64,000 nt of DNA. Origin: Halogranum rubrum (GTDB lineage Archaea > Halobacteriota > Halobacteria > Halobacteriales > Haloferacaceae). Position 1 is the first letter of the stretch. Each line of letters opens with the position of its first letter. This document shows positions 2,199 through 57,194 of the stretch, piece by piece. Made by a program: the position numbers and the translations under genes. The notes under the pieces were generated by a model. That model worked only from the letters and a program-made list of their open reading frames with translations. It did no database searches and had not been told where the DNA came from. The stretch lies in assembly GCF_900114455.1 (NCBI RefSeq), contig NZ_FOTC01000001.1:1451058-1515057 (forward strand), written 5' to 3'.

Positions 2199-4463
2199 CT
2201 ACTGGAACGTCCGACCGTACTCGCCTTCTTCCTTCGTCACGTCGCTCTTCTTGAAGCGCTCCTCGATCTCCTCGTAGCGCTGGCGCGTCTCGTCGGTGAC
2301 GCTCGGTTGGACCTCGTCGAGCGCCTGCTCGAAGTGGTCCATCGTCACGCGGACGTTGCCGATGGACTCGGCGACGTCCTCGCGGTCGACGCTGCGGATG
2401 AACTCGCGGGAGGCGGTCATCGACGCCTCGCGGGCGAGTGCTTCCAGGTCGGCCCCGACGTAGCCCTCGGTCCGGCGAGCCAGTTTGTCGAGGTCGACGG
2501 AGTCGGCCAGCGGTTTGTGCTGCGTGTGGACCTCCAGGATCTTCCGGCGGCCGTCCTCGTCCGGCACGGGGACGTGGACGTGTCGGTCGAGTCGACCGGG
2601 GCGCAGGAGCGCCGAGTCGATGAGGTCCGGGCGGTTCGTCGTCGCGATGACGACCACGTCTTCCAGCGCTTCGAGGCCGTCGAGTTCCGTCAGCAGTTGC
2701 GAGACGACGCGCTCGCTGACACCGGAGTCGTTGCTGTTGCGGCCGCGTTCGGTCGCGATGGAGTCGATCTCGTCGAAGAACACCACCGTCGGGGCGTTCT
2801 CACGGGCCTTCTTGAACACTTCGCGGACGCCCTTCTCGGACTCGCCGACGAACTTGTTCAGGAGTTCCGGTCCCTTGATGGAGATGAAGTTCGACTCCGC
2901 CTCGTTGGCGACAGCCTTCGCGAGGAGGGTCTTCCCCGTCCCCGGCGGGCCGTAGAGGAGGACACCCTTCGCGGCTTCCATATCCATCTGCTGGAACACC
3001 TCGGGGTACTCCAGCGGCCACTGGATGGTCTCGCGGAGACGCTCTTTGGTGCCTTCGAGGCCGCCGACGTCCTCCCACGTGACGTCCGGCACTTCGACGA
3101 ACACCTCGCGGAGCGCCGAGGGTTCGATACCCTTCAACGCCTCTTTGAAGTCGTCTTCGGTGACCTGGAGGCTCTCTAAGACCTCGGCGTCGATTTCGTC
3201 GGCTTCGAGGTCGATATCGGGGCGGATACGCCGGAGGGCAGTCATCGCTCCCTCCTTCGCCAGCGATTCGAGGTCCGCGCCGACGAACCCGTGAGTGTTG
3301 TCGGCGTACATGTCGAGGTCGATGTCGTCGGACAGCGGCATGTTCCGCGTGTGGACCTGCAGAATCTCCTTACGACCGTCGCGGTCCGGAACGCCGATTT
3401 CGATTTCGCGGTCGAAGCGGCCACCGCGACGGAGCGCAGGGTCGATGACGTCGACGCGGTTGGTCGCGCCGATGACGACGACCTGGCCGCGTTCTTCGAG
3501 ACCGTCCATCAGGCTCAGTAGCTGAGCCACCACACGGCGCTCGACGTCGCCACCGGCCTCGCTGCGCTTGGCCGCGATAGAGTCGAGTTCGTCCATGAAG
3601 ACGATGGCCGGCGCGTTCTCGGTGGCCTCTTCGAACACTTCACGGAGCTGTTCTTCGGACTCACCGTAGTACTTCGACATGATTTCGGGGCCCGAAATCG
3701 TGTGGAAGGAGGCGTCTATCTCGTTGGCGACGGCCTTCGCGATGAGCGTCTTGCCCGTGCCCGGCGGGCCGTGCAGGAGCACGCCCTTCGGCGGTTCGAT
3801 ACCGAGTCGCTTGAACAACTCGGGGTGTCGCATCGGCAGTTCGATCATCTCGCGGACCTGCTCTAACTCGCGGTCGAGACCACCGATGTCCTCGTAGGTG
3901 ACGTCGGGACCGTCGCCACTGCCAGCGACGCCGCCACCGCCACGAATCTGTTCGGCGGGCTTCTCGCTGATGGTGATCTCGGTCGAGTCGTTGATGACGA
4001 CCGTTCCCCCCGGCGACGTCTTCGCAATCTTCAGCGGGACAGACTGCCCTTGGCTGGCGATGAAGCCGAAACCGAACGGAATCTGGACTGACTGGCCTTG
4101 CGTGACTGGCTGCCCGGAGAGTTTGTCGCGGATGTGGGGACCGATGTTACCGCTGATACGAAGGTTCTGCGGGAGTGCAATCGTGACTTCGTCTGCGGGT
4201 TTGACGTCCGCTTTGTCCACGTCTACTTTGTCGTCGATGCCGACGTTGGCCTGTTGGCGGAGTCGGCCGTCGATACGGACGACGCCCGTTCCGTCGTCTT
4301 CCGGGTATCCCGGCCAGACGCGAGCGATAGCAGTTCCGTCCTTCCCTTCGATACGGATGAAGTCGCCACCGGAGAGACCCATCTCCTTGGCGGCGAGGCG
4401 GTCGATGGCGGCGAGGCCACGGCCCGCATCCTTCTGTTTGAGTGGTTTAACTGTGAGCTTCAT
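2199..4463 (-). CDS. cdc48: CDC48/VAT-type AAA+ ATPase (p97 family unfoldase)
   Basis: 754 residues, the usual length for archaeal VAT. The N-terminal ~190 residues match the double-psi-barrel substrate/adaptor-binding domain ([20 protein letters not shown] start). Two AAA modules follow, each with GPPGTGKT (Walker A, around residues 232 and 505) and a Walker B ([18 protein letters not shown]), plus arginine-finger regions ([17 protein letters not shown]). The hexamer unfolds proteins with ATP and feeds them to the proteasome or refolding. The start ATG overlaps the stop of the small upstream Hsp20-like gene by ATGA, so the two are co-translated from the promoter near 4744. All ATPase motifs look intact. 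Confidence 0.96.
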
Positions 4464-4708
4464 TGTGCACCGGTGATAGTGATGACGCCGTTTTTCATAA
4501 ACACTTCCGCGCCAGCGTTGGGAAGTTCGAACTCGGTCTCGAACAACCGGTCGCCGGCGTCGACGACGATGATGGCCGTCTGCCCGACGATGTCGACGTC
4601 GACAGCCTCATCAGACACTCGTAGGTCGGCCGCGACGACCCAATGGTCGTCGTAGTCGTACCGTCGGAGGAAGCGGTCGTCACGACCCTCGAATAACTGT
4701 TGACTCAT
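4460..4708 (-). CDS. Small Hsp20-like (alpha-crystallin-fold) protein coupled to cdc48
   Basis: 82 residues, [20 protein letters not shown] at the start. The second half reads like a minimal alpha-crystallin domain: beta-rich [19 protein letters not shown], then [20 protein letters not shown], close to the classical LP...NGVLTI signature of small heat-shock proteins, but without the N- and C-terminal extensions used for oligomer formation. Haloarchaea carry this family as a domain of unknown function (DUF7127 type, from memory). The ATG at 4708 is chosen over an upstream frame because it sits about 33 nt after a TATA box and the protein looks complete. Its stop overlaps the start of cdc48, which suggests a joint role in protein quality control, for example as adaptor or holdase (inference). 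Confidence 0.75.
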
Positions 4709-4740
4709 GAGGAATCCTAACCACAAGTTAGTTGTCTGAG

Positions 4741-4747
4741 TATATAA
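4741..4747 (-). promoter_or_regulatory. TATA box of the Hsp20-like/cdc48 operon
   Basis: TTATATA on the minus strand with an A/G-rich flank on its upstream side. It lies 33 nt before the ATG at 4708, so transcription should begin around 4718 with a short leader. It is the clearest TATA element in this part of the window. Confidence 0.6.
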
Positions 4748-4864
4748 CTCTTTCTCCGAGAAATCGGCAGACAACGAAGGGTTAGCCGCGAGAAACTCGA
4801 ATTGCGGTTCCGGCTCGTTGGTGTCTCCTGCGGTTTTAAGCTCTGAGACTCGAACACACGACAC

Positions 4865-6912: not shown

Positions 6913-8271
6913 ATGGACTACGCTGAGACGTCGAACGCGCAACTGCTCGCACAGCAGGCGAGTCGAGAGTCGAACGCGCGGACGTACCCGCGACATCTGC
7001 CGCTCGCCATCGAGCGAGCACAGGGCGTCGAAGTCGAAGACGTCGACGGCAACACGTACTACGACTGTCTGGCCGGGGCTGGAACGCTCGCACTCGGACA
7101 CAACCACCCCACCGTCACCGAGGAGATGGAGCGACTACTCGCGGCGGACCGCCCTATCCACACCCTCGACATCACGACACCCGAGAAGGAGGCGTTCGTC
7201 GACGCCCTGTTCGACAGCCTTCCCGACGCGTTCGCGGACAACGCGAAGGTTCAGTTCTGTAGCCCCGCCGGGACCGACGCCGTCGAGGCGGCACTCAAAC
7301 TCGTCAAGACGGCGACGGGCAACCGGAGCGTCCTCGGCTTTCAGGGCGGCTACCACGGCATGACGAACGGCGCGCTCAGTCTGATGGGTGACACGGCCGC
7401 CAAGGAGTCGATTCCCGGGCTGATGCCCGACGTCCATCACCTCCCCTACCCCTACGACTTTCGCCCGCCCTTCGGCATCGACGGCGACGAGGGCCACCGG
7501 GCTATCAGCCGATACATCGAAGGGTTGCTCGACGACCCCGACAGCGGCATCGTCGACCCCGCCGGGATGGTTGTCGAACTCGTCCAAGGTGAGGGCGGCG
7601 CAATCGCCGCCCCCGACGAGTGGACGCGCGAGATTCGACGCATCACCCGCGAACGCGACATCCCCCTGATTGTCGACGAGATTCAGACCGGCCTCGGTCG
7701 GACGGGCGAACTCTTCGCCTTCGAACACGCCGACATCGTCCCCGACGTCGTCACGCTCTCGAAGGCCGTCGGCGGCGGCCTCCCGCTCTCCGTCGTCGTC
7801 TACCGCGACGACCTCGACGTGTGGAAACCGGGTGCACACGCCGGTACCTTCAGAGGGAACCAACTCGCGATGGCCGCCGGACGCGCCACCATCGAGTACG
7901 TCGTCGAGAACGACCTGCACGAACACGCCGCCCAGATGGGCGAGCGACTGCGGAGCCACCTCGAACGCACCGCCGACCAGTTCGACGCCGTCGGCGACGT
8001 TCGTGGCCGCGGTCTGATGCTCGGTGTCGAGTTCGTCGACACCGAAGGCGAGCGCGAACCGACCGGGGCGCTCCCGGCCGACGGCGACAGGGCTACCGAG
8101 GTCCAGTCGGCCTGTTTCGACCGTGGCCTCGTCGTCGAGACGGGCGGCCGTCACGGCGCGACGGCACGGTTCCTCCCCCCGCTCGTCGTCACCCCCCAAC
8201 AGGTCGACGACGTCGCCGCTATCTTCCACGAAGCGGTGGAGACGACCGCCGCACGGGAGGTGGTGGCGTGA
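6913..8271 (+). CDS. dat: Diaminobutyrate--2-oxoglutarate aminotransferase (siderophore step 1)
   Basis: 452 residues from the ATG at 6913, which has GGAGGTG five bases upstream; the longer open frame from 6838 would start inside iron box 3 and is rejected. It is a class III PLP aminotransferase: GHNHP near residue 65, CSPAGTDAVEAALKL, the PLP-binding IVDEIQTGLGRTG, and the Schiff-base lysine in VTLSKAVGGGLPLSV. Together with the decarboxylase next to it this is the DABA aminotransferase/decarboxylase pair that makes 1,3-diaminopropane from aspartate semialdehyde for rhizobactin/schizokinen-type siderophores. It is the first gene of a six-gene operon under three iron boxes and overlaps the next gene by GTGA. 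Confidence 0.92.
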   Translation: MDYAETSNAQLLAQQASRESNARTYPRHLPLAIERAQGVEVEDVDGNTYYDCLAGAGTLALGHNHPTVTEEMERLLAADRPIHTLDITTPEKEAFVDALFDSLPDAFADNAKVQFCSPAGTDAVEAALKLVKTATGNRSVLGFQGGYHGMTNGALSLMGDTAAKESIPGLMPDVHHLPYPYDFRPPFGIDGDEGHRAISRYIEGLLDDPDSGIVDPAGMVVELVQGEGGAIAAPDEWTREIRRITRERDIPLIVDEIQTGLGRTGELFAFEHADIVPDVVTLSKAVGGGLPLSVVVYRDDLDVWKPGAHAGTFRGNQLAMAAGRATIEYVVENDLHEHAAQMGERLRSHLERTADQFDAVGDVRGRGLMLGVEFVDTEGEREPTGALPADGDRATEVQSACFDRGLVVETGGRHGATARFLPPLVVTPQQVDDVAAIFHEAVETTAAREVVA

Positions 8272-9785
8272 GCGACCAGCGTCAGATGGACACGAGTCCG
8301 CCCGGCGTCGGAACCTTCCTCGGGACGGGGGCCGGTTCCGCAACCTACCGGGAGGCGATGGACGCCGCCGTCGACGCCGTCCTCGACGCCAGCGCGAGCG
8401 GCCCCTATTCGGGTGAGACGTACGACGAACTCGAAGACGAATTCGACGTCGACACGCTGCCGGATACGGGAAGTGACCTCACACACGTCGTCGAGTGGGT
8501 CGGCGAACACGTCCTCGCCAACTCCGTCGTCACGTCCGACCCGACCTGTGTCGCCCATCTCCAGTGTCCGACCGCGATTCCCGGACTGGCGGCCGAGGCG
8601 ATGCTTACTGCACTCAATCAGTCGATGGACTCGTGGGACCAGAGCCCCGCCGCCACCGTCGTCGAGGAGTCGATGGTCGAGGAACTCTGTTCGCTGTTCG
8701 GTCTCCCCAACGCCGCCGACGGCGTATTCACCAGCGGTGGAACGGCCTCGAACCTGCTCGGCCTCCTGCTCGCGCGGGACCGCTACGTCACCGAGACGTT
8801 CGGTCAGCGCGTCCAAGACGAAGGACTACCGCCCGAAGCGTCGGACCTGCGGATTCTCTGCTCCGACGCCGGCCACTTTACGGCCCAGCAGTCGGCCGCC
8901 GTACTCGGGTTAGGAGAAGACGCCGTCGTCTCCGTCCCGACAGACGACGACTACCGGATGGACCCCGAGGCGCTCGACGCGGAACTCGCGCGTCTCGACG
9001 ACGAGGGCAAGCGACCGTTCGCGCTCGTCGCCACCGCAGGGACGACGGACTTCGGGAGCGTCGACCCGCTCTCGGCACTCGCAGACCGGGCGGCCGAACA
9101 CGACCTCTGGTTCCACGTCGACGCCGCGTACGGCGGGGCGCTCGCCGTCTCCGACCGTCATCGCGAGATGCTCGCTGGCGTCAGCCGTGCGGACTCGGTC
9201 AGTCTCGACTTCCACAAACTCCTCTATCAGCCCATCAGCTGCGGGGCGTTCCTCCTGCGTGACGGGAGTCACTACGACCTCATCGACCGGAACGCGTCGT
9301 ACCTCAACCCCGAGGCGGACGAGGAGGCGGGCGTATCGAATCTCGTCGGCAAGTCGCTCGCGACGACCCGCCGGTTCGACGCGCTCAAACCGTTCGTGAC
9401 GTTCCAGACGCTCGGGCGCGAGGGCGTCGCCGAACTCGTCGACTACACCCTCCAACTCGCCGACGACGTGGCCGAACTCGTCGAACGCGACCCGGCGCTA
9501 GAACTCGCCGCCGACCCGACGCTGAACGCCGTCGTGTTCAGATATCGACCCTCGCAGCAGCATTCCGACCGGGAGACGAGCGAGTGGGTCGACACCGTCA
9601 ACCGTCGCATCCGCGACCATCTCTTGGAGCGCGGGATGGGCGTCGTCGCTCGCACCGAAGTCGACGGTGACGCCTACCTGAAGTTCACCCTCCTGAACCC
9701 GCAGACTACCGTCGATGACGTCGCCGACCTACTGGTGAGCGTGAAGCAGTACGGGGCCGCCATCGAGTCGGAGGTGAACGAATGA
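8268..9785 (+). CDS. ddc: L-2,4-diaminobutyrate decarboxylase (siderophore step 2)
   Basis: 505 residues from a GTG that overlaps the previous stop (GTGA) and has GGGAGG seven bases upstream; an ATG six codons later is the alternative. It is a group II PLP decarboxylase: TSGGTASNLLGLLLARDR, the PLP-contacting FHVDAAYGGALAVS, and the cofactor lysine in SVSLDFHKLLYQPISCG. It converts diaminobutyrate to 1,3-diaminopropane, the diamine backbone of schizokinen-like siderophores. Position between the aminotransferase and the IucA/IucC synthetase supports the substrate assignment; glutamate or tyrosine decarboxylases of the same fold are the less likely alternative. Confidence 0.92.
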   Translation: MSDQRQMDTSPPGVGTFLGTGAGSATYREAMDAAVDAVLDASASGPYSGETYDELEDEFDVDTLPDTGSDLTHVVEWVGEHVLANSVVTSDPTCVAHLQCPTAIPGLAAEAMLTALNQSMDSWDQSPAATVVEESMVEELCSLFGLPNAADGVFTSGGTASNLLGLLLARDRYVTETFGQRVQDEGLPPEASDLRILCSDAGHFTAQQSAAVLGLGEDAVVSVPTDDDYRMDPEALDAELARLDDEGKRPFALVATAGTTDFGSVDPLSALADRAAEHDLWFHVDAAYGGALAVSDRHREMLAGVSRADSVSLDFHKLLYQPISCGAFLLRDGSHYDLIDRNASYLNPEADEEAGVSNLVGKSLATTRRFDALKPFVTFQTLGREGVAELVDYTLQLADDVAELVERDPALELAADPTLNAVVFRYRPSQQHSDRETSEWVDTVNRRIRDHLLERGMGVVARTEVDGDAYLKFTLLNPQTTVDDVADLLVSVKQYGAAIESEVNE

Positions 9786-11650
9786 CGTCCGTCGGTGCTG
9801 ACTGCGAGACACCGGCCGAGCACGGTGAGTCCGCGACGATTCACGGACTGCTGAACTGCTACCTCAGAGAGACGCGGGCGTTCTCGGTTCGACCGGCCTC
9901 GGAGACGCCAGTCGAGGAAGCGGACGAGGAGAGCGACGTCGCCGTCGTTCCGCTTCCCGAGTCGAATCTGACCCTCTACGCGCCGCTCCGGTACGAGTCG
10001 CCGACGGGTCGACATCTGTTCGAGTTGCCGGTTACGTACACGGTGGGCTCCGACAGGTCCGACGAGTCAGAGAAGTCCGACCCAATCGAACTCGACGCGC
10101 CGACGCTGGCGGCGCTACTCTGTCGAGAACTTGCGCTCGCCGCCGACGGACCGACCGAGGCCGCCGCGACGGACGAAGTCCTTTCACGAGTGCTGTCCAG
10201 CAAGGAGAACATCGAACGGTTCGTCGCCGCGCGGTCGGGAGAGACGGACCGACTCTACGGGTTCGACACCTCGTTCCGAGACGCCGAGCAGTCGCTCGTC
10301 TACGGCCACCTCATGCATCCGACGCCGAAGAGTCGCGAGGGAATCGCCGAACGCGACGCGCCGACCTACGCGCCGGAACTCCGCGGGTCGTTCGCGCTGC
10401 ATTACGTGCGGGCCGACCCGTCTATCGTCGCCAGCGATTCGGCACTCGACACGTCGGCCACCGAGTGGGTGAAAGCGGAACTCCGCGAGGACGACGAAGT
10501 AACCGACGAGTTCGTCGCAGACCACGTCGACAGCGACGACGTGCTCCTACCGCTCCACCCGTGGCAGGCCGACTACCTGCTCGACCGACCGAACGTCCGC
10601 GAGGCCATCGAGGACGGACTGCTCACCGACCTCGGGCAGGTCGGACGCGAGTACTACCCTACCACCTCCGTGCGGACGGTCTACCACCCCGAGTCGTCGT
10701 TCATGCACAAGGGCTCGTTGAAGGTGGCCATCACCAACTCCGAGCGGACGAACAAGCGACCCGAACTGGAACGCGGCGTCGCCATCTCCGAACTGCTCGC
10801 CACGGACCTCGGCGACGCGCTTCGAGAGCGGTTCCCCGCGTTCGACGTGATTCAGGACCCGGCGTATCTGACGCTGGACATCGGCGACACCCCCGAGTCT
10901 GGGTTCGAAGTCGTGCTCCGAGAGAACCCCTTCGAGGGCGAGGCGGCGACGAACGCGACACCGCTCGTCGGTCTCTGTCAGGACGGTATCGACGGGCCGT
11001 CGCGACTGGCGCGCATCGTCGAGACGCTGGCCGAGCGCGAAGGTCGGTCGACGGACGCCGTCGCTCGCGACTGGTTCGAGCAGTATCTCGCCGTCTCGGT
11101 CCGACCGATTCTCTGGCTCTACCTGCTCCACGGCGTCGGCGTCGAGGCCCACCAGCAGAACAGTGTCGTCGTCCTCGACGACGGCTACCCCGACGCCTTC
11201 CGCTACCGGGACAATCAGGGCTACTACTTCCGCGAGTCGGTGTACGACGACGTCGACGACTATCTTCCGGGCGTCGGCGAGCGCGCGGACACCGTCTGTC
11301 CGGACGCCGTCGCCGACGAGCGCATCCGCTACTACGTGGTGTTGAACAACGTCTTCGGTGTCGTCAACGCCCTCGGCGTCGCCGGACTCGTCGACGAACG
11401 CGACTTGCTCGAACTGCTTCGCGACGAGTTGGCGTCCCTACAGACGCTCGAACGCGGCGACACCTCGCTCGTCTCGACACTTCTCACGGCCGAGGAGGTG
11501 CGCTGTAAGGCGAACTTCCGGACGCGCGTCGAGGGACTGGACGAACTGGAGGGGTCGCTCGCGAACCAGTCGGTGTACACGGCGATTCCGAACCCGCTCG
11601 TCACCGAACTCGACGGAGAGAGACAGGAGACACAGGAGGTCAGCCGATGA
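9782..11650 (+). CDS. iucA: IucA/IucC-family siderophore synthetase, first copy
   Basis: 622 residues, ATGA overlap with the decarboxylase gene. NIS synthetases of this family activate citrate with ATP and couple it to a hydroxamate amine. Visible family features are HPTPKSREG (ATP-binding loop, about residue 178), LLPLHPWQADYLL (~257), the SVRTVYHPESSFMHKGSLKV stretch (residues ~300-320), the LHGVGVEAHQQNSVVVL box with its conserved histidine, and the C-terminal FerrIC/FhuF-like helical region (CKANFRTR). Two different synthetases flank the hydroxylase and acetyltransferase in this operon, as in schizokinen and aerobactin clusters. Which citrate carboxylate this copy acts on cannot be read from sequence. 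Confidence 0.93.
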   Translation: MTSVGADCETPAEHGESATIHGLLNCYLRETRAFSVRPASETPVEEADEESDVAVVPLPESNLTLYAPLRYESPTGRHLFELPVTYTVGSDRSDESEKSDPIELDAPTLAALLCRELALAADGPTEAAATDEVLSRVLSSKENIERFVAARSGETDRLYGFDTSFRDAEQSLVYGHLMHPTPKSREGIAERDAPTYAPELRGSFALHYVRADPSIVASDSALDTSATEWVKAELREDDEVTDEFVADHVDSDDVLLPLHPWQADYLLDRPNVREAIEDGLLTDLGQVGREYYPTTSVRTVYHPESSFMHKGSLKVAITNSERTNKRPELERGVAISELLATDLGDALRERFPAFDVIQDPAYLTLDIGDTPESGFEVVLRENPFEGEAATNATPLVGLCQDGIDGPSRLARIVETLAEREGRSTDAVARDWFEQYLAVSVRPILWLYLLHGVGVEAHQQNSVVVLDDGYPDAFRYRDNQGYYFRESVYDDVDDYLPGVGERADTVCPDAVADERIRYYVVLNNVFGVVNALGVAGLVDERDLLELLRDELASLQTLERGDTSLVSTLLTAEEVRCKANFRTRVEGLDELEGSLANQSVYTAIPNPLVTELDGERQETQEVSR

Positions 11651-54686: not shown

Positions 54687-55712
54687 CTACGTATGGTGTT
54701 CGTGTTCTGGCGACTGCTCTTGCTCGACCACGCGCCGAGTCACGTCGTCGAGTTCGACGAGGTGACACAGTGGGTTGCCGGGGTAGACGACGGGGTTCTC
54801 TAACAGGCCGACGAGGAGTCCCGTGAACGGCGCTTCGATGAACGTGTTGTCGTCCTTGAACGGGTTGGTGATGGTACAGATTGGGTCCCCCTCGTGGACG
54901 AGTGACCCGCGCTCGAAGTGCATGTCGACGATGCCGCCGGCGTCGGCACGAATCCACGTCTTCTCTTGGTCACCCGTGATGATGGTTCGCCAACCGGGCC
55001 ACCGAACCGCCGTCGTCTTGCGGAGTTCGTACTCGGCGAAGACGCTCTCGACGCCGGCGAGCGCCTCGTCGATGAGGACGCGTTGGAATCGGTGGGCCTC
55101 ACCCATCTCGATGGTGATGGTCGGAACGCCGGCCCGACTCGCCTCACCGCGGAGACTGCCGCTCGGCCCTTCGCTGTCGATGATGACGTGTGTTCCGAAC
55201 CCTTGGGCGAGTCGCGCCACCTTGTCGTCGGACATGTCTGCGCGAACGTGGAGCATGTTCGTCCGGCCGCGCGTCGACGTGTGGAAGTCCAGTCCGAAGT
55301 CGCACGGTTCGATGAAGTTGGTGAAGATGCGGTGTGCCATCCGTTTAGCACTGGTCGAGTCCGGTCGTCCCGGGAACGACCGATTCAGGTCGCGGTCGTA
55401 GATTGGGAGATACCGCTGTTGGAAGAGGAAGCCCGGAACGTTCAACACGGGCATACAGACGAGTGTCCCCGCGAGGTCAGAGAGGTCCCACTCGTAGGCG
55501 ACCTCGCGGACGACTTCGATGCCGTTGAGTTCGTCGCCGTGGGCGGCCGCCGAGATGAACACCGTCGGTCCTGGCTTCTCGCCGTTGATGATACTCACCG
55601 GAATCCTGACCGGGTCGCCGAGATACGTTTCGCTGATACCGTAGCGGATATTCTGCCGTTCGCCCGGCGCGACCTTCCCCCCATGATAGGTGAAGGCCCC
55701 GTCGTCGCTCAT
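54687..55712 (-). CDS. Succinylglutamate desuccinylase/aspartoacylase-family zinc hydrolase
   Basis: 341 residues from the ATG at 55712. M14-like metal site: zinc ligands in AAHGDELNGIEVVRE (H, E) and LDFHTSTRGRTN (H), the catalytic Glu in ITIEMGEAHRFQ; PGFLFQQRYLPIYDRDLNRSFPG (read in part) is the substrate arm. A C-terminal biotinyl-lipoyl-like half-barrel (ADAGGIVDMHFERGSLVHEG, GLLVGLLENPVVYPGNPLCH in part) is usual for this group. It would cut N-acyl-amino acids or amide-linked amino acids. Divergent from the RimK-protease fusion, only 120 bp apart, suggesting one pathway. Confidence 0.9.
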   Translation of the reverse strand: MSDDGAFTYHGGKVAPGERQNIRYGISETYLGDPVRIPVSIINGEKPGPTVFISAAAHGDELNGIEVVREVAYEWDLSDLAGTLVCMPVLNVPGFLFQQRYLPIYDRDLNRSFPGRPDSTSAKRMAHRIFTNFIEPCDFGLDFHTSTRGRTNMLHVRADMSDDKVARLAQGFGTHVIIDSEGPSGSLRGEASRAGVPTITIEMGEAHRFQRVLIDEALAGVESVFAEYELRKTTAVRWPGWRTIITGDQEKTWIRADAGGIVDMHFERGSLVHEGDPICTITNPFKDDNTFIEAPFTGLLVGLLENPVVYPGNPLCHLVELDDVTRRVVEQEQSPEHEHHT

Positions 55713-55832
55713 ACCACCTTCTCCACGAGGTGGGTATATAAAACGTCGCTGAGAGCGCGTCAAGATGTCTCTCTGGTTTCGTTTTGGGATACCGGCAACC
55801 CTTTGAAACCGCACTCTGATACAACACAGTAC

Positions 55833-57194
55833 ATGGACACAACTGACGCCGACCAGGTCCGAGTCGGAGTGCTCTCGCTCCACAACAGCAAGGAGACGAA
55901 AGCCATCCTCAACGCCGTCGAGGACCTCGGACATACGCCCGTCTGGCTGCGCCAGGAGAACACGGCCATCAGTGTCGAAGACAGCGAACTCACCCTCGAG
56001 CCAGATATCGACATCGTCGCGAACCGCCTTCTCCTCTCGAACACCGAAGAACCCGCCGAACTGCTCGGCCTCGCGACGACGTTCAACCGCGTCCGGCCGA
56101 TGCTGAACGAACCGGACGCCGTGATGGCGTCTATCCACAAGTTCGCGACGGCGGCGACGCTCGCGAACTGGAACATCAAAGTCCCAGACGCGCTGCTCGC
56201 ACTCTCGAACGACCGACTCAACCAGGGCCGCTCACAGTTCGGCGACGTCGGGGTCTACAAGACGGCCATCGGGACGCACGGTGGCGGGACGTGGAAGGTC
56301 GACCTCACCGAACCCGTCAACCCGAAGGTCGGGAACCGACAGGCGTTCCTACAGGCACTCATCGACCGTGACGGCGAACGTCACCGCGACCTCCGGGTCT
56401 ACATCGTCGACGGCGAGATTATCGGCGCGATGTACCGCTTCGCCCCGGAAGGCGACTGGCGAACGAACGTCGCCCTCGGCGGCGACGTGTTGAACGCGAC
56501 CGACGAGATGGACGACGAGGCCTCCGAGACGGCACTCTACGCCGCCGACGTCATGGGTCTCGACTACGCAGGCGTCGACCTCATCGAAGGCAACGACGGT
56601 TGGTTCGTCCTCGAAGTCAACCCCACCGCAGGGTTCAAAGGTCTCTACAAGGCGACCGGCAAGAGTCCGGCCCCGTACATCGCCAAGAGCGCAATCGAGC
56701 GCGCTGGCGGCACCGTCGACGAGGACCGCGTGTCCGAACTCGCGGCGACGCTCGACGACTCCGAACCGTCCTGCAAGCCGCGCGTCGAACCACCGGAACA
56801 CCAAGACGTCCCCATCATCGGCTACATCGAGGACGTCGTCGTCTCCGGAACCAGTGGGTCGACGCAGGCGAAGGCCAAGTCCGACACCGGTGCGACTCGG
56901 ACGAGCATCGACACCAGTCTCGCCGCCGAAATCGGCGCCGGTCCGATCAAGAGCATGACTCGCGTCAAGTCGGGCAGTGTCAAGGGCGGAAAGGCCCGTC
57001 CGGTCGTCGACCTCGTCATCGGTATCGGCGGGACGCAGCACACGGTCACCGCCAGCGTCGAAGACCGCAGTCATATGGACTACCCACTGCTGCTCGGCCG
57101 CGACATCCTCGAACACTACCGCGTCGACGTCCGACGCCGCTCCGACGGTGACAACAAGCCACCGCTCGACAGCGAAGAGTACCTCGAAGAGTAG
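55833..57194 (+). CDS. RimK-type ATP-grasp ligase fused to a retropepsin-like aspartic protease
   Basis: 453 residues from the ATG at 55833 (the longer frame upstream is a shadow). Residues 1-~300 are a RimK/LysX-like ATP-grasp ligase: VGVLSLHNSKETKAIL pre-ATP-grasp, VYKTAIGTHGGGTW loop, and the metal-binding EVNPTAGFKG with E261 and N263. Residues ~325-445 are a RimB/retropepsin-like domain: KSDTGATRTSID with catalytic D351, and the flap-side YPLLLGRDIL. In bacteria RimK and RimB are separate proteins that add and trim glutamates on ribosomal S6; here ligase and protease are one chain. The tail is acidic. Divergent partner: AspA-like hydrolase. Confidence 0.9.
   Translation: MDTTDADQVRVGVLSLHNSKETKAILNAVEDLGHTPVWLRQENTAISVEDSELTLEPDIDIVANRLLLSNTEEPAELLGLATTFNRVRPMLNEPDAVMASIHKFATAATLANWNIKVPDALLALSNDRLNQGRSQFGDVGVYKTAIGTHGGGTWKVDLTEPVNPKVGNRQAFLQALIDRDGERHRDLRVYIVDGEIIGAMYRFAPEGDWRTNVALGGDVLNATDEMDDEASETALYAADVMGLDYAGVDLIEGNDGWFVLEVNPTAGFKGLYKATGKSPAPYIAKSAIERAGGTVDEDRVSELAATLDDSEPSCKPRVEPPEHQDVPIIGYIEDVVVSGTSGSTQAKAKSDTGATRTSIDTSLAAEIGAGPIKSMTRVKSGSVKGGKARPVVDLVIGIGGTQHTVTASVEDRSHMDYPLLLGRDILEHYRVDVRRRSDGDNKPPLDSEEYLEE

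Follow-up and report, generated by a model that had tools for sequence, protein, structure and literature searches.

The window, i.e., the whole 64,000-nt stretch of the Halogranum rubrum genome that was analysed, contains two divergently transcribed genes. The first (55833..57194, + strand, ATG start) encodes a 453-aa protein in which a RimK-like ATP-grasp ligase is fused to a RimB-like retropepsin, the ligase (K) preceding the protease (B) by Pfam domain order; the second (54687..55712, − strand) encodes a predicted zinc hydrolase of 341 aa with the AspA/AstE (M14-like) fold. They are separated by a shared divergent promoter region of 120 bp (55713..55832). Since full-length homologues of the fusion occur across haloarchaeal families, a chance or mis-framed open reading frame is excluded.

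The ATP-grasp core comprises residues 103–277 of the fusion (56139..56663, +) and matches PF08443 with 81.2 bits at a cut-off of 21. Its metal ligands E261 and N263 (56613..56621, +), within the motif LEVNPTAG, are identical in all 114 homologues, including divergent paralogues. The nearest solved folds found by Foldseek are ArgX, LysX, and RimK (TM 0.79–0.84 by target). The retropepsin domain, residues 327–436 (56811..57140, +), was delimited by PF05618 and by alignment with RimB, RloA (9g58), and 2pma. The PF05618 (Zn_protease/RimB) match itself covers residues 374–436 (38.8 bits, cut-off 27), and a gag-asp_proteas match at residues 345–428 spans the DTG motif. The predicted catalytic aspartate of this DTGA motif, D351 (56883..56885, +; KSDTGAT), is aligned with D48 of RloA and is 99% conserved in the same homologues. 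Thus, the ligase and the aspartic protease in one chain, and the metal-binding and catalytic residues named in the preliminary description, are all borne out. The AlphaFold model of the ligase half is confident (pLDDT mostly >70), whereas the protease half has a pLDDT of about 25–55 both in the full chain and as a lone domain, and its identification is sequence-based.

Three residues of the protease half are of particular interest, namely K349 (56877..56879, +; 99% conserved), R389 (56997..56999, +; 100%), and R412 (57066..57068, +; 100%). They are aligned with K46, R114, and R137, respectively, the polyglutamate-coordinating residues of RloA and RimB. These were assigned as substrate contacts by an AlphaFold model of RloA with octaglutamate and by mutagenesis, are conserved in RimB, and among the contact mutants R114A and R137A had the strongest effects (PMC12239564). 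The alignment also shows that about 20 residues of RimB are missing from the haloarchaeal domain, and hence the exact substrate-length requirement of the haloarchaeal protease may differ.

The NCBIfam family models do not capture either half. The ligase half scores 133.5 bits, below the cut-off of 143.4 for the NCBIfam RimK family (TIGR00768), and stays far below the equivalog thresholds for S6–L-glutamate ligase (NF007764; 53.8 vs. 331 bits), MptN (118.2 vs. 350), LysX (93.5 vs. 275.6), and CofF (55.3 vs. 300). In the phylogenetic tree, it forms its own long-branch clade outside RimK, LysX, and MptN, and the tree offers no confident donor. Similarly, the RloA equivalog models give 29–42 bits for the protease half (cut-offs 210–280), and no RimB model in NCBIfam matches it at E <= 0.001.

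The divergent hydrolase matches PF24827 (AstE_AspA_cat) with 162.7 bits, well above the cut-off of 25, in agreement with the earlier account of an AspA-like enzyme 120 bp away. Residues H58, E61, R111, H144, and E202, which we take to be the zinc and catalytic residues of the family, are invariant among its homologues. At the same time, it misses the cut-offs for aspartoacylase (31.9 vs. 180 bits), succinylglutamate desuccinylase (18.9 vs. 170), and DoeB (84.6 vs. 402.7).

The fusion is near-universal in haloarchaea. It was detected at E < 1e-100 in 32 of 40 sampled relatives. When 295 genomes from the whole phylum were sampled, 47 of the 53 haloarchaea had the fusion, and none of the roughly 240 other genomes did. 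Haloferax relatives carry the locus as well; in Haloferax volcanii, the probable locus tags are HVO_2813 for the fusion and HVO_2812 for the AspA protein, because HVO_2814 is the neighbouring DNA glycosylase. The literature searched contained no mention of HVO_2812 or HVO_2813. A second fusion encoded in the Halogranum genome (L103:4973-6304; 62% identity) has a tail ending in TE, no adjacent AspA gene, and two flanking thioredoxin-like open reading frames. Two fusion-carrying haloarchaea also have standalone short retropepsin-like frames of 115 and 107 aa (L130:5190-5537 and L131:4981-5304), the latter with DTQ in place of DTG.

The preliminary description had also asked whether the fusion and the AspA gene stay together, and they largely do. 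A divergent AspA gene lies within 5 kb of the fusion in 71 of 80 named loci, and in 43 it is within 300 bp. The remaining loci include one (L047) with the AspA gene on the opposite side and four cut by contig ends (L046, L086, L090, and L091). Both genes are present in 32 of the 40 relatives and both absent from seven; a single relative, G025, with an 86% complete genome, has only AspA (Fisher p = 4e-7, calculated with no phylogenetic correction). The main haloarchaeal copies adjoin sdh and alkA-like genes. However, the divergent pair is kept without sdh genes on plasmids of Halolamina, Halorarius, and Salinirubellus, and hence the link does not merely reflect inherited chromosome order; other plasmid copies of the fusion have no adjoining AspA.

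Several variants of this arrangement were observed. In Natrinema and Haloarchaeobius (L070:2900-5990 and L072:4960-5980), extra genes separate AspA from the fusion; by eye, these include a GNAT-like acetyltransferase and, in Natrinema, also a flippase-like membrane protein. On a Haladaptatus plasmid (L113:5998-10517), two genes come after the fusion, one for a more distant member of the AspA family and one of the glutamate-cysteine ligase family, and on a Natrinema plasmid (L152:1-7993) a lone AspA relative is situated between cation:proton antiporters and TrkA-C proteins. One divergent fusion paralogue (L107:4942-6330) has an internal TAG stop and is probably a pseudogene, and its divergent AspA gene is intact.

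The same three protein families also occur as separate genes. In archaeal family f19 of the same phylum, rimB, rimK, and aspA adjoin one another at 15 of the 16 loci, and similar unfused sets are found on plasmids of Salinivibrio, Vibrio, Acaryochloris, and Phaeobacter. In a tree from which long branches were left out, a branch with support 95/91 separates the AspA proteins encoded next to the fusion and those of the unfused sets from the other haloarchaeal AspA paralogues. The fusion is the one-polypeptide form of the rimB-rimK-aspA set. The two forms differ in that the haloarchaeal AspA is divergent, and that the single f19 RimK scanned is a full-scoring S6-ligase-type enzyme (479.5 vs. 331 bits). 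On Vibrio plasmids, apparent two-domain matches turned out to be rimK and rimB as neighbouring but separate genes. A second class of PF05618 proteins in the phylum (about 180–200 aa) had no rimK or aspA nearby in five loci examined. One archaeal rimB-rimK-aspA set (L121) is surrounded by three genes of the mechanosensitive-channel family (3870-4763, 7511-8467, and 9395-10255). In Photobacterium (L117:5770-10867), two tandem ATP-grasp proteins are followed by an 887-aa protein that, on visual inspection, resembles an M14 carboxypeptidase with added repeats; this may be a further system in which a ligase and a peptidase handle tags.

The fusion ends in a variable tail, residues 437–453 in the window protein (57141..57191, +; ...DSEEYLEE), and its last residue is conserved. 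Glutamate terminates 111 of 114 fusion proteins (110/113 homologues and the window protein) and aspartate none. The usual end is Glu-Glu, the tail being otherwise variable in sequence and, counted from the LGRD motif of the protease, in length (10–39 residues). As the 113 homologues include a few duplicate loci, and as binomial p values for the Glu end presuppose independence and so exaggerate the evidence, clustering at 70% identity and the paralogues provide the fair test. At clustering thresholds of 90, 80, and 70% identity, the Glu end is found in 64/66, 32/33, and 15/16 clusters, and Glu-Glu in 46, 22, and 11 of them, respectively. Diverged paralogues (47–59% identity) also keep it, e.g., TVEE, ASEE, YDEE, VAEE, RLEE, and SIEE. 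For comparison, 146 non-redundant acidic proteins were taken from the same loci: a Glu end was seen in 11.6% of them and an Asp end in 10.3%, and not one closed with Glu-Glu. Only 10 of 97 AspA neighbours have a Glu end, and the inspected RimK, RimB, and AspA proteins of the f19 sets have none.

The C-terminus of ribosomal protein S6 is the site of RimK action, and terminal glutamate on S6 is treated as relevant (PMC11957791). No S6 (PF01250) was detected in any of 20 genomes examined; as these archaea lack it, S6 is excluded as the acceptor. Given the action of RimK on the S6 C-terminus and the conserved terminal Glu, we propose the Glu-ending tail of the fusion as a candidate glutamylation acceptor, the best that the sequences support, whether alone or beside other proteins.

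Our best explanation, to which we assign slightly better than even odds (about 0.55), is that the locus is a glutamate-polymer tagging module in which poly-alpha-glutamate is built up and cut, either on acceptors with a C-terminal Glu or on free oligo-Glu. The ligase half would use ATP to add alpha-linked glutamates to such an acceptor or oligomer, and the retropepsin half fused to it would dimerize and cleave the chain when it has grown to several Glu. The divergent hydrolase with the AspA fold would be the eraser, probably removing terminal residues or finishing short oligomers. In a bolder and more tentative version, the fusion might be its own substrate: it would extend its C-terminal Glu-Glu, have the added residues cut off by its own protease, and so work as a switch that tags and resets itself. 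From this pattern, we infer the chemistry, self-modification, what AspA does, and the link with salt stress. The preliminary description had spoken of amino-acid tags in general; its observation is confirmed, none of the three findings that it named as refuting was made, and its reading is partly supported, with the retained K/R/R polyglutamate contacts pointing to glutamate specifically. RimB has been shown to cut polyglutamate and also to stimulate RimK (PMC11957791). On the other side of the balance, the ligase half falls short of the RimK family and forms a long-branch clade, so that the amino acid added could differ from Glu; the protease half is without a confident structure model; a bacterial RimBK hybrid had protease activity, but glutamylation of RpsF was not seen (PMC11957791); and, the proteins of halophiles being acidic, a Glu tail may in part represent salt adaptation.

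The alternative that survives best is that the fusion synthesizes and shortens free poly-alpha-glutamate, or buffers glutamate in some other way, for the sake of ion or osmotic balance, with AspA completing the breakdown to glutamate and no protein being tagged. We consider it rather unlikely, although several observations agree with it. Free poly-alpha-glutamate is made by RimK under stimulation by RimB (PMC11957791), rimK of Photobacterium damselae is up 52-fold at low salinity (PMC10308900), rimK is commoner in brackish than in marine genomes (PMC10219603), and RloA proteases are required for hypo-osmotic tolerance (PMC12239564). Further, the bacterial unfused sets examined are located near mechanosensitive channels, MgtE/CorA/ZntB, or cation:proton antiporters. 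However, the independent bacterial cases are few, several loci coming from close relatives (Salinivibrio, Vibrio), and such neighbours occur in only 4/16 f19 loci. The main haloarchaeal loci, with their sdh and alkA-like neighbours, have no channel or transporter genes of this kind. Nor does this alternative account for the conservation of the enzyme's terminal Glu. We regard the salt and osmotic link as suggestive only.

It is improbable, in our view, that the ligase has a small molecule or a cofactor as its substrate and that the protease domain is regulatory. MptN and CofF add alpha-linked Glu to tetrahydromethanopterin and F420, respectively; MptN is the second-best NCBIfam model for the ligase half after the RimK family, and the single-domain proteins closest to the fusion elsewhere in the phylum are MptN-like. 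Against this, the MptN score is only about one-third of its cut-off, the fusion has no well-supported grouping with MptN-like proteins, and haloarchaea are not methanogens. The fused protease half, moreover, has intact polyglutamate-type residues, and the fusion is linked to AspA.

A carrier function similar to that of LysW would have the enzyme's own C-terminal Glu bear an amino acid as a protected group, with AspA releasing the product. The C-terminal Glu of LysW is the site of action of ArgX and LysX, both among the fold matches of the ligase half, and the terminal Glu of the fusion is conserved, but the tails are unlike LysW, no processing genes of the LysZ/Y/J type adjoin, and a polyglutamate-cutting protease half would be left without a role; we deem this very improbable. 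Least probable of all is that the fusion and AspA belong to unrelated pathways and are adjacent by inherited chromosome order: the sdh neighbourhood is indeed common to the main copies, but the divergent pair is retained in diverged paralogues and on plasmids that have no sdh genes, and the three families are linked in both bacteria and f19.

Among known systems, tubulin polyglutamylation combines TTLL ligases, which are ATP-grasp writers of glutamate chains, with CCP carboxypeptidases, their M14-type erasers. These act on side-chain tags in eukaryotes, no retropepsin is involved, and the likeness to the fusion is at most one of fold class. The study of Iyer et al. 2009 reportedly bears on links between amidoligases and peptidases. 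A closer counterpart of the glutamate-tagging reading is RimK-RimB of Pseudomonas fluorescens, which builds and cuts poly-alpha-Glu (PMC11957791). It likewise combines an ATP-grasp ligase with a retropepsin, and the catalytic Asp and the K/R/R contacts are conserved. In contrast to the fusion, it is encoded by separate genes and acts on S6, with no AspA mentioned (PMC11957791), and the ligase of haloarchaea belongs to a subfamily distant from its RimK. The RloA-RloB-RloC system of Pseudomonas aeruginosa also pairs a related retropepsin with an ATP-grasp protein, and polyglutamate is cleaved there, but the genes are separate, the protease is secreted, a membrane inactive transglutaminase takes part, and AspA is missing (PMC12239564).

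A precedent for the fusion itself is the RimBK hybrid of Desulfotalea psychrophila, published in 2025, which has ligase and protease in one chain and whose protease half cut polyglutamylated RpsF (PMC11957791). Such hybrids are described there only in bacteria, and RimB is N-terminal in the Desulfotalea protein but C-terminal in the haloarchaeal one (PMC11957791). The reversed domain order points to an independent fusion event in haloarchaea. A bacterial ligase-protease fusion of the opposite order (PMC11957791) and unfused rimB-rimK-aspA sets are already known, and what is new is a K-then-B fusion in archaea without S6, its retained K349, R389, and R412, and its conserved Glu C-terminus.

Characterized protein glutamylation of the RimK type is bacterial and concerns a single ribosomal protein. 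Since the module described here is near-universal in haloarchaea, which lack S6, targets other than S6 must exist for RimK-like systems. A concrete and cheaply testable prediction follows from the conserved Glu at the C-terminus of the fusion, and the genetically tractable Haloferax volcanii should carry the locus, as its Haloferax relatives do.
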